This document shows positions 9,386 to 26,787 of a stretch of 64,000 nucleotides of DNA, in pieces. The translations under genes and the position numbers were made by a program. Below the pieces are notes generated by a model. It was not told the DNA's origin. It made no database searches and saw only the letters and a list, made by a program, of their open reading frames with translations. The stretch is from Archaeoglobus neptunius (GTDB taxonomy: Archaea > Halobacteriota > Archaeoglobi > Archaeoglobales > Archaeoglobaceae). The stretch covers positions 1-64,000 of the forward strand of contig NZ_JAEKIW010000014.1 in NCBI RefSeq assembly GCF_016757965.1, read 5' to 3'. Each line of letters opens with the position of its first letter. The stretch's first letter is position 1.

Positions 9386-9393
9386 GCAAAAAC

Positions 9394-9401
9394 TTTAAAT
9401 A
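9394..9401 (+). promoter_or_regulatory. TATA box of the trp operon
   Basis: TTTAAATA lies with its centre about 26 bases before the trpC ATG at 9424. No ribosome site precedes that ATG. The trp transcript is therefore probably leaderless, and there is no room for a leader-peptide attenuator. The right-hand element repeat ends only eight bases upstream, so any upstream operator would be element-derived. Confidence 0.6.
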
Positions 9402-9423
9402 CAGCTTTCTTTATTCCTGAAAT

Positions 9424-10113
9424 ATGGGAACATACCTAAAATCAGGGTTTATTAATTCATTAAAGAGTGTAGTCAGTAGTGGAAGGAATGCAGTAATTGC
9501 TGAGATAAAGCCATACTCTCCCATACACGGTGACCTCATGAAGGGGAGGGATGTGGAAGACATTCTCCAGGCGTATTTTAATGCAGGGGCTGCGGCCATT
9601 TCTTATATCACAGCAGCAGATTTCGGTGGAAGTTTTGAAACTCTTCGCAAAATCTGCCATCTTTCAGAGTTACCAGTTTTGAGGAAGGACTTCATAAGGG
9701 ATGCTGCAGAAATTGAAAGAAGTGCCGGGGCTGATGTTTCCGCTCTTCTGCTTGTAGCCAGACATCTGAAGGACAGAACAGATGAGATGGTAGATTTATG
9801 CTTTGAACATGGAATTGAGCCGGTTGTGGAGGTTCATCATCCTGAAGACCTGCCGTTTGCCAGGAATGCGGATGTGGTTCTGATAAACAACAGAGATATA
9901 GACAGAATGGAAACCGACAGTGGCGATGTTAGCGTAACTGCAAGAATCGCTCAGAGAATAAACTGCTTCAAGATAAGTGGAAGTGGGATAGGCAGTATAG
10001 AAGACCTGCTCTTTGTCTTGAACTACGCAGATGCGGCCCTCATTGGAACGGCTTTCATGATGGCAGATGACACTGAACGCTTTGTTAGAGCTTTTGTGGA
10101 GGCGAAACGATGA
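9424..10113 (+). CDS. trpC: Indole-3-glycerol-phosphate synthase
   Basis: A 229-residue TIM-barrel enzyme that closes the indole ring from carboxyphenylamino-deoxyribulose phosphate. Diagnostic stretches are VIAEIKPYSPIHGD (Lys and Ser at the phosphate end), VLRKDFIRD with the catalytic Lys, EPVVEVHHPED, VLINNRDID and the phosphate loop SGSGIGS. It is shorter than bacterial TrpC (about 260) because the N-terminal helix is short, which is common in archaea. It opens the seven-gene trp operon and overlaps trpD by ATGA. Confidence 0.93.
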   Translation: MGTYLKSGFINSLKSVVSSGRNAVIAEIKPYSPIHGDLMKGRDVEDILQAYFNAGAAAISYITAADFGGSFETLRKICHLSELPVLRKDFIRDAAEIERSAGADVSALLLVARHLKDRTDEMVDLCFEHGIEPVVEVHHPEDLPFARNADVVLINNRDIDRMETDSGDVSVTARIAQRINCFKISGSGIGSIEDLLFVLNYADAALIGTAFMMADDTERFVRAFVEAKR

Positions 10114-24535: not shown

Positions 24536-24543
24536 TTTTTAAA
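24536..24543 (+). promoter_or_regulatory. TATA box of the ilvB operon
   Basis: TTTTTAAA, preceded by AAACC, predicts transcription from about 24565-24566. That is the first base of a 16-codon reading frame, so the mRNA could begin directly with this leader peptide. Confidence 0.5.
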
Positions 24544-24565
24544 GCGGGGTGGTTTGGAAAATCCA

Positions 24566-24616
24566 ATGCAAGAAAACTTTCCGGTTGTAGTAGTGGGGCT
24601 TGTAATTCTTTTCTAA
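24566..24616 (+). CDS. Possible branched-chain-rich leader peptide before ilvB
   Basis: The frame reads MQENFPVVVVGLVILF then TAA. Five Val, two Leu and one Ile fill eight of 16 positions, seven of them within the last ten residues, just as in bacterial ilv leader peptides. It starts at the predicted transcription start and ends 22 bases before the ilvB ATG. The T-rich ATTCTTTTCT inside its end could act as a terminator when translation does not cover it. I see no clear hairpin. It may be a control peptide or a chance frame. Confidence 0.4.
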   Translation: MQENFPVVVVGLVILF

Positions 24617-24638
24617 AGTTAGCTTATGGGGTGGTTTT

Positions 24639-26297
24639 ATGCGTGCCGCTGATGCGCTTGTTAAGGCTTTGGAGATGGAAGGTGTCGAGGTCGTGTTTGG
24701 CATACCGGGTGGTGCAATCCTTGAGGTTTACGATGCGATTTATGACTCTGGAATTCAGCACATAACAACAAGACACGAGCAGGGAGCAACTCATGCTGCG
24801 GACGGATATGCCAGGGCAAGTGGGAAAGTGGGGGTTGCATTTGCAACCTCGGGTCCGGGAGCGACAAATACCGTCACCGGTATAGCAACCGCTTATATGG
24901 ACTCGTCTCCCATAGTTGTCTTTACCGGGCAGGTTCCAACAAGCATGATCGGAAACGATGCATTTCAGGAGGCGGATATTACCGGTATAACAATGCCCGT
25001 CACCAAACACAACTATCTCGTGACAGAGGCGGGGGACATGCTTAAAACAATCAAGGAGGCCTTTCACATCGCAGCGACAGGCAGGCCCGGACCCGTTCTT
25101 GTTGATCTTCCCAAGGATGTTACGCTGGCAGATGTTGAATTCAACTATCCGAAGAAGGTTTCCCTTCCGGGATACAAACCAAAGTTGGACGGGCATCCCA
25201 GGCAGATAAAAAGGGCGGCCGAGCTTATAATGGAGTCTGAAAGGCCGGTTATTCTGGCGGGAGGAGGGGTTATAATTTCAAACGCTTCAAAGGAGCTAAC
25301 AGAGCTTGCAGAGACCATTCCCGCCTTTGTTGCAACAACACTGATGGGAAAGGGAGCAATACCTGAAACACATCCACTGAGTCTGGGTTTTGTCGGAATG
25401 CACGGGTCCAAGTATGCAAACTATGCAGTTCAGGAGAGTGACGTGTTAATAGCTGTTGGATGCAGGTTCAGCGACAGAACCACGGGAAATCTGGAAAGGT
25501 TTGCTCCTGACGCTAAAATAATCCACATTGATGTTGATCCGGCCGAAATTGGCAAGAACGTTGGAGTTGACGTGCCGATTGTTGGAGATGCAAGAAAGGT
25601 GCTGGCAAGGCTGAAAAAGCACATTCAGTACAAACAGAGAAAGCTTTGGGAAGACAGAATTAACAAATGGAGGAGAGAGCATCCACTGAAATACAGCAGA
25701 GATGGGTTCAAACCACAGTACGTTGTTGAGAGAGCATGTGAGATAATGCCCGATGCAATAGTAACCACGGAAGTCGGGCAGAACCAGATGTGGGCGGCCC
25801 AGTTTTTCAAGGTCAGGTATCCACGGCAGTTCATAACCAGTGGCGGACTGGGGACCATGGGTTTCGGCTTTCCGGCTGCAATGGGTGCGCAGGTCGCATT
25901 TCCGGATCGAACTGTGATAGATATCGCTGGAGATGGCAGCTTTTTCATGAACATTCAGGAGCTGGCGACGTGCGTTAAATATGAAATCCCTGTCAAGGTT
26001 CTGGTGCTGAACAACGGATATCTGGGAATGGTGAGGCAGTGGCAGGAGCTGTTTTACAAGGAGAGGTACTCGGCTACCTGCATTGGATGTGAGAAGACTG
26101 GATTTGAGGCAATAGCAAGAGGATTTGGAGCGGTGGGCATGACAATCGAGAGTCCGGGAGAAGTTGACGATGCACTCAAAGAGGCCAGAGAGATTGACGC
26201 TCCCGTTGTCATTGACTTCAGAGTTGACTACCAGGCCAACGTTTTCCCGATGGTCCCGCCCGGAGCGGCTCTGAATGAGATTATAGATATCGAGTGA
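24639..26297 (+). CDS. ilvB: Acetolactate synthase, large catalytic subunit
   Basis: A 552-residue ThDP enzyme of valine, leucine and isoleucine synthesis. The catalytic Glu47 is in TTRHEQGATHAADGYARA. FATSGPGATNTVTGIATAY, DAFQEADITGITMPVTKHNY and the ThDP/Mg motif IAGDGSFFMNIQEL ... NNGYLGMVRQWQE are complete. The ribosome site GGGGTGG is placed before the ATG. The regulatory subunit follows after 10 bases. It is the anabolic, FAD-binding AHAS form rather than a catabolic ALS. Confidence 0.96.
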   Translation: MRAADALVKALEMEGVEVVFGIPGGAILEVYDAIYDSGIQHITTRHEQGATHAADGYARASGKVGVAFATSGPGATNTVTGIATAYMDSSPIVVFTGQVPTSMIGNDAFQEADITGITMPVTKHNYLVTEAGDMLKTIKEAFHIAATGRPGPVLVDLPKDVTLADVEFNYPKKVSLPGYKPKLDGHPRQIKRAAELIMESERPVILAGGGVIISNASKELTELAETIPAFVATTLMGKGAIPETHPLSLGFVGMHGSKYANYAVQESDVLIAVGCRFSDRTTGNLERFAPDAKIIHIDVDPAEIGKNVGVDVPIVGDARKVLARLKKHIQYKQRKLWEDRINKWRREHPLKYSRDGFKPQYVVERACEIMPDAIVTTEVGQNQMWAAQFFKVRYPRQFITSGGLGTMGFGFPAAMGAQVAFPDRTVIDIAGDGSFFMNIQELATCVKYEIPVKVLVLNNGYLGMVRQWQELFYKERYSATCIGCEKTGFEAIARGFGAVGMTIESPGEVDDALKEAREIDAPVVIDFRVDYQANVFPMVPPGAALNEIIDIE

Positions 26298-26307
26298 GGT
26301 GATGCTG

Positions 26308-26787
26308 ATGAAGCACACAATAGCGGTTTTGGTTGAAAACAAGCCGGGTGTTCTGGCAAGGGCAGCATCTCTCTTCAGAAGGAGGGGATTTAACATTGAA
26401 AGCCTTACCGTTGGTACAACGGAGAGAGAGGATATTTCAAGGATGACCATAGTCGTTGAGGGTGATAACAGGGTCGTTGAGCAGGTTATAAAGCAGCTTA
26501 ACAAGCTTATTGAAACGATAAAGGTCAGCGAAATTTCTGAAGGTTCGGTGGAGAGGGAGCTGTGCCTGATAAGAGTGCATGCACCACCCGAAAAGAGAGG
26601 GGAGATCGTTGAGCTTACGAACATATTCAGAGCGAGAATTGTGGACGTTTCGAGGGACAGCTTTATAATAGAGGTAACAGGCGATGGGGATAAGATCACG
26701 GCTTTTATAGATCTGATGAGGCAGTACGGAATAAAGGAGCTTGCAAGAACCGGAAAGGTTGCAATGGTGAGGGGAAACAAAAGGTAG
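26308..26787 (+). CDS. ilvN: Acetolactate synthase, small regulatory subunit
   Basis: This 159-residue subunit has an N-terminal ACT domain (MKHTIAVLVENKPGVLARAA, then SLFRRRGFNIESLTVGTTE) that binds valine for feedback inhibition, and a C-terminal ferredoxin-fold domain (LCLIRVHAPPEKRGEIVELT). I chose the ATG at 26308, preceded by GAGGTGAT. In-frame GTG 26299 and ATG 26302 are also possible. It activates and regulates IlvB. Confidence 0.95.
   Translation: MKHTIAVLVENKPGVLARAASLFRRRGFNIESLTVGTTEREDISRMTIVVEGDNRVVEQVIKQLNKLIETIKVSEISEGSVERELCLIRVHAPPEKRGEIVELTNIFRARIVDVSRDSFIIEVTGDGDKITAFIDLMRQYGIKELARTGKVAMVRGNKR

Follow-up and report, generated by a model that had tools for sequence, protein, structure and literature searches.

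A putative leaderless leader peptide in front of ilvB in Archaeoglobaceae, and its possible role in ribosome-mediated attenuation

Introduction

Among the closest described systems to the locus reported here are the bacterial attenuators of the trp/his/ilv type found at ilvB, ilvGMEDA and ilvBNC, with which it shares a short ORF rich in Val, Leu and Ile between the promoter and the first pathway gene, rare end-product codons, and a leader whose end is T-rich. Attenuation can also do without an intrinsic hairpin. In Rho-dependent attenuation of the TnaC type, a ribosome stalled near the leader stop masks the site at which the termination factor loads. For Corynebacterium ilvBNC, a leader that is made without a ribosome binding site is described in a reference cited by PMC13158618.

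On the archaeal side, FttA, a CPSF73-like nuclease, acts as a transcription terminator with a preference for U-rich RNA located 30-36 nt back from the 3' end of the transcript, with U at -23 (PMC11616081), and U-tracts also end archaeal transcription (PMC8116511). Mutual steric exclusion of the ribosome and FttA has been proposed, untested, by the authors of the FttA work (PMC11616081). Archaeal aromatic amino-acid genes are controlled by TrpY-like and TK0271 transcription factors (PMC6737238). Our full-text searches, which left subscription papers outside their scope, found no described archaeal leader-peptide attenuator. An earlier reading of this DNA without database searches (the sequence-only reading) knew of no well-described archaeal case. 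Accounts of archaeal gene control deal, to our knowledge, almost exclusively with initiation.

Results

A short ORF between the promoter and ilvB

The window, by which we mean the whole 64,000-nucleotide stretch of DNA analysed, carries the acetolactate synthase genes ilvB and ilvN, with the following features.

24537-24544, + strand: TATA box, TATA-like TTTTAAAG, beginning 29 nt ahead of the leader ATG
24566-24616, + strand: leader ORF of 16 codons, MQENFPVVVVGLVILF, with intact orthologues in 47 of 49 loci and 12 genera
24584-24604, + strand: proposed sensing codons GTT GTA GTA GTG GGG CTT GTA, supported by Val-codon statistics in relatives
24605-24616, + strand: U-rich tract ATTCTTTTCTAA, which includes the leader stop codon; candidate U-tract or FttA site, function inferred
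24628-24634, + strand: Shine-Dalgarno of ilvB, GGGGTGG, visible in the sequence, with a GGTGG-like form kept in relatives
24639-26297, + strand: ilvB, acetolactate synthase large subunit (NCBIfam NF004710 and TIGR00118 above cut-off), the proposed regulated gene
26299-26787, + strand: ilvN, acetolactate synthase small subunit (NCBIfam TIGR00119 above cut-off)

The leader reads ATG CAA GAA AAC TTT CCG GTT GTA GTA GTG GGG CTT GTA ATT CTT TTC TAA, from its ATG at 24566 to its TAA at 24614-24616, and the stop lies 22 nt before the ilvB ATG (24639). Three of its codons are GTA (positions 24587, 24590 and 24602). The sequence-only reading had pointed to this 16-codon frame, placed close behind a TATA box and 22 bases ahead of the acetolactate synthase gene, with eight of its 16 residues being Val, Leu or Ile; the coordinates, the 29-nt spacing and the codon reading all bear this out. 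Because that spacing fits the usual archaeal promoter, we infer that transcription starts at, or a few nucleotides from, the leader ATG, which would make the leader itself leaderless. ilvN begins 1 nt after ilvB and is probably on the same transcript. An Rfam search of the window leader returned no match up to E = 1, and membership in the T-box riboswitches or another Rfam leader class is thus not met.

Conservation of position and composition

ilvB is present in 52 of 55 Archaeoglobaceae genomes, and upstream DNA was read for 49 loci. In 47 of these, representing 12 genera, the equivalent position contains an intact leader ORF, 13-28 codons long; related genomes are not independent, and the genus count is the fairer measure. 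The two exceptions are L012, in which a one-base break occurs in a metagenome assembly, and L049, from a fragmented genome, which has none. The first TATA base lies 26-31 nt before the leader ATG at nearly all ilvB loci, as read from the TATA-like match nearest 28 nt (where the automatic pick falls at 18 or 44 nt, as it does in a few cases, it is a secondary A/T-rich match), and the leader stop falls 12-40 nt before ilvB across the relatives. Examples from relatives include MHKIFPVELVVVELVILF, MKKFSGKELVVVLLVLLF, MQTMLNLPVVVVC, MFVNCEIRSIELFLIVVVQ, MPKFIPIPAILVSLLVLVE, MAAGLSVGTILLLPVAVFVVVQ and MVCFPEILSLVAVVLF.

Val, Ile and Leu make up 50% of the residues in the leader frame of the 47 relatives (minimum 37%). 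The other five frames have 12-31%, and none of 400 sets of shuffles exceeds 32.5%. Loss of the frame or of its codon content among close relatives would have refuted the sequence-only reading, and that refutation was not met. We also scanned the whole complete genome of a close relative (G001, 2,178,400 bases) for small ORFs that begin with ATG, span 12-31 codons, have a good TATA 26-31 nt ahead of them and are closely followed by the start of a gene. Fifty-five small ORFs fit this promoter-proximal geometry, and the ilvB leader alone among them reaches a V/I/L fraction >= 0.37 together with >= 2 GTA codons. Short ORFs are common, and an origin by chance or as an annotation artefact has to be considered for any one of them, but the recurrence across loci and genera, the shuffles and the whole-genome control leave this explanation with a negligible likelihood, and we regard it as refuted by conservation.

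The peptide sequence itself is not conserved. Identity between genera is 24% over the last ten residues, and when codon positions were compared for signs of purifying selection on the peptide, there was no excess of third-position changes, an absence that fits selection on composition. These results bear on the possibility that the small ORF encodes a functional hydrophobic membrane peptide whose proximity to ilvB is coincidental. Its length of 13-28 residues and its richness in Val, Leu and Ile are what such a peptide might have, but the sequence drifts between genera and shows no third-position excess, yet GTA is kept at 78% of Val codons. A functional peptide is disfavored because it is the synonymous codon choice that is kept, and aromatic leaders described below follow an equivalent logic with other residues. 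We consider this explanation very improbable.

A rare valine codon is favored in frame

GTA accounts for 150 of the 192 Val codons in the leaders (78%) as opposed to 146 of 1462 (10%) in the family's ilvB genes, an approximately 8-fold enrichment (P about 1e-89), and it makes up 12.5% of Val codons in G001. All 47 leaders contain at least two GTA codons. An attenuator is expected to use rare end-product codons, and for ilvB this property is met, with 78% in leaders against 10-12.5% in genes. Other leader codons are skewed as well (Leu TTG, 65 of 172; Ile ATT, 59 of 79); codon rarity appears to account best for the Val codons, as ATT is not rare. G001 has one tRNA-Val gene each for the anticodons CAC, UAC and GAC, and thus GTA is probably read by a single tRNA. 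The tRNA-Val(UAC) gene of G001 (C1, 1537496-1537568, - strand) is located about 2.3 kb downstream of ilvB (1539837-1541489, - strand). This proximity, seen in one relative, was dropped from consideration, there being no tRNA gene in the window.

The repeated element GTAGTAGTA recurs in several genera, which could be taken to mean that it is a DNA or RNA binding site for a repressor or an RNA-binding protein, with the open frame as a by-product. GTA trinucleotides in the leaders, however, occur 149 times in frame and 3 times out of frame, and those without a GTA neighbor are in frame in 71 cases as opposed to 3. A nucleic-acid motif is disfavored because GTA is frame-dependent in this way. The distance of GTAGTAGTA to the TATA box and to the stop is also variable, V/I/L codons other than GTA are raised too, and aromatic leaders hardly use GTA. 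A binding site is thus as poor an explanation, in our estimation, as the membrane peptide.

U-rich tracts and RNA structure

The sequence-only reading suggested that the T-rich end of the frame could be a terminator. The best 7-mer between the last GTA and the ilvB Shine-Dalgarno contains a mean of 5.4 U, compared with 3.7 in control DNA (P 3.5e-9, 46 loci), and the tract is therefore enriched as that suggestion would have it, while its terminator role is inferred. Two caveats apply: the control DNA, taken from upstream of the promoter, has the base composition of another region, and the loci are not independent of one another. With the spacing preferred by FttA, the tract at 24605-24616 would be engaged when polymerase is near 24640, at the ilvB start. 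From usual ribosome footprints we infer that a ribosome whose A site is occupied by the codon at 24602 would cover the U-rich tract.

The absence of hairpins noted in the sequence-only reading stands for the lineage of the window, where the leader folds no better than its dinucleotide shuffles (z 0.16), and mutually exclusive terminator and antiterminator hairpins are absent in the window copy and in most Archaeoglobaceae. It does not stand for the post-leader regions of Methanocellaceae (below), nor for two Archaeoglobaceae genera (g12 and g2). In these two genera the start region can form a stem with the Val codons, at 100% and 96% pairing, and within each five-sequence set two of the pairs have changed on both sides. 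With five sequences per genus, and a shuffle control that was not clearly exceeded, this predicted hairpin is suggestive only. In several genera a short GC stem followed by a T-run is visible by eye after the leader stop.

The main rival to termination is control of ilvB translation, by which the leader would sense tRNA in the same manner and act on access to the Shine-Dalgarno through blocking, coupling or refolding, with no premature termination. The short distance from leader stop to ilvB start, 12-40 nt, means that a ribosome near the stop reaches the Shine-Dalgarno, which is itself strongly kept; a weak hairpin can take in the ilvB Shine-Dalgarno in a few species; and the 5' hairpin lies inside the leader in the two genera mentioned above. 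Yet we found no Shine-Dalgarno-sequestering structure common to the genera, U-rich tracts are enriched exactly where termination needs them, and aromatic leaders end 39-118 nt upstream of their gene match, which in many cases is too distant for direct blocking. We therefore regard translational output as unlikely.

A second class of leaders before ADTH synthase

Of the 55 promoter-proximal ORFs in G001, two reach an F/W/Y fraction >= 0.30. One of these two, MHGVAKTRVFGFYFRFSFGYWFSF, stands before the gene for ADTH synthase and represents a second leader class that surfaced in this same screen. Single-genome scans on amino-acid enrichment alone gave mostly spurious candidates, with the aromatic one being the only candidate to survive comparison. 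ADTH synthase is the first gene of the aromatic pathway in archaea, and the orthologue in the window's own genome matches TIGR01949 above cut-off; its leader is MANAIYDCRAEFFFGFWYQFSF. Aromatic leaders are present in 28 of the 29 Archaeoglobaceae ADTH synthase loci examined (among L310-L339), and in all 28 the ATG lies 29-31 nt after the TATA box. Phe, Trp and Tyr make up 39% of their residues, whereas other frames have 6-11% and shuffles never exceed 19%. Two properties of an attenuator, a short ORF between the promoter and the first biosynthetic gene and its enrichment in pathway end products, are thus met (V/I/L 50% at ilvB, F/W/Y 39% in the aromatic class). Rare-codon use is not seen in the aromatic leaders, where TTT and TAT lead and GTA is hardly used.

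Two genomes of a sister family in the same order also have an aromatic leader (L435, ...GFWFSYFSYWFSY; L428, ...FWFSFRYFYYRFSY), as do four of four genomes of the Methanocellaceae, which belong to another class and whose family assignment is inferred (for example MYPIALKANNAFAFNFSFSYWFSF and MLPETNSNRLISVSSFSFGFGFWFY). Between the end of an aromatic leader and the gene match lie 39-118 nt. In Methanocellaceae, strong structure begins within a few bases after the leader stop (z -1.8 to -3.6). By eye, all four (L434, L439, L440 and L441) have two competing pairings between the leader stop and the gene: a terminator-like stem beginning at the stop, and a pairing of that stem's inner part with the conserved element AGCGYCNGCC, which lies 20-40 nt ahead of the gene. 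The alternative stem in L440, GACGATGC...GCATCGTTTGCGTGTTTT, is terminator-like by eye, and a ribosome near the leader end would, also judged by eye, cover its 5' arm. The regions that follow the aromatic leaders of Archaeoglobaceae show no general tendency to fold (mean z -0.41) and, by eye, are not uniformly U-rich.

A conserved GGAGGTGTTYTGCAATGGCT lies after the aromatic leader, about 60 nt upstream of ADTH synthase, in L310-L325. It provides another strong Shine-Dalgarno with a start codon, in a frame other than that of the ADTH synthase gene, and in some genomes this frame ends at the ADTH synthase start (...YKYKRCFI*).

Limits of distribution

Among 40 other Halobacteriota genomes we found no V/I/L-rich leader with GTA codons, and ilvB there is usually close behind leuA. 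The Methanocellaceae L063, L064 and L089 have a conserved small ORF, M(K/N)NNDKLLI...KEVxK, between leuA and ilvB, located 26-131 nt before the ilvB match, whose stop falls at the ilvB start region. The leuA/cimA genes of Archaeoglobaceae have no leader and are themselves leaderless or nearly so. No leader was found at ilvC or leuC in one complete genome, no Trp leader peptide was found for the trp operon or trpC, and a non-exhaustive look near hisG turned up no His-rich leader. At the beginning of the window's trp operon (9392-9424), a leaderless trpC comes first, at 9424, with a TATA about 30 nt before its ATG. No aromatic leader was found at ADTH synthase in Methanosarcinia and the other families examined. 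Loci of these groups (L397-L426, L429-L433) share palindromes, for example GTGCTACTATGTCACATACTAACA or TGTACATTAATGTACA, directly after the TATA box, and these are probably repressor operators.

Discussion

We propose that the ORF in front of ilvB encodes the leader peptide of a ribosome-mediated attenuator. This is the best explanation overall for what we observe, and we give it a probability of about 0.72. The charged-tRNA sensing suggested by the sequence-only reading gains comparative support from position, leaderless geometry, end products, GTA usage, the U-tract and the aromatic class, while regulation remains an inference. Sensing by a translating ribosome is favored because the leader residues match the end products of the downstream pathway in two pathways, and because composition is kept while sequence drifts. 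That the leader is translated and senses codons is, in the absence of expression data, inferred with considerable confidence; that it acts through transcription termination is likewise inferred, and here the odds are about even. What the sequences show directly is the ORF with its conserved position and content, the rare codon, the U-rich tract and the second leader class. That the leader is translated, that ribosomes stall on it, that transcription terminates and which way the response runs are all inferences from sequence. Counted against attenuation is the lack of such a leader at leuA/cimA, ilvC, trpC and leuC of these genomes.

In the attenuator we envisage, a ribosome would begin on the leaderless 5' end at the leader ATG. 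When Val-tRNA is ample, above all the GTA-reading isoacceptor, it would pass the Val, Leu and Ile codons and depart at the stop, and the exposed U-rich leader end would allow transcription to end before ilvB. Termination could be due to FttA or to the U-tract alone, and in some genera to a U-tract combined with a short hairpin. Under Val-tRNA shortage, the ribosome would stall on the GTA codons and mask the U-rich tract (as well as the 5' arm of hairpins where these are present), and polymerase would enter ilvBN. An equivalent mechanism may operate with the aromatic leaders before ADTH synthase. One termination mechanism may not fit all leaders, since the window copy has no hairpin and the post-leader regions of the aromatic class in Archaeoglobaceae are neither structured in general nor, by eye, uniformly U-rich.

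If this is true, two archaeal pathways have a tRNA-sensing, translation-dependent layer of regulation, and leader-peptide attenuation either has several origins or goes back further than has been assumed. The pattern suggests an ability, shared by archaea and bacteria, to detect a lack of amino acids via a ribosome stalled on a leader peptide. A broader claim, that ribosome-mediated attenuation with leaderless leaders is a general principle in archaea, spanning at least two pathways and made hairpin-free in hyperthermophiles by shielding U-rich sites from FttA, is tentative, and we would put it slightly below an even chance. The leaders would also be natural substrates for asking if there is competition for RNA polymerase between FttA and the ribosome in archaea.

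What appears to be new, by inference, is leader-peptide attenuation in archaea that is leaderless and mostly hairpin-free; its bacterial counterpart is known. Unlike the bacterial ilv leaders, which have their own Shine-Dalgarno, the archaeal leader has an archaeal promoter and a leaderless start, and the window lineage lacks a terminator/antiterminator pair, such that the terminator would be a U-tract or FttA. The comparison with TnaC differs in two respects: the archaeal stall is proposed to come from uncharged tRNA at GTA, whereas that of TnaC comes from the nascent peptide, and the archaeal factor would be FttA rather than Rho. TrpY-like and TK0271 regulators, in contrast, are DNA-binding proteins that act at promoters, and the ADTH synthase genes of Methanosarcinia have palindromes and lack a leader.
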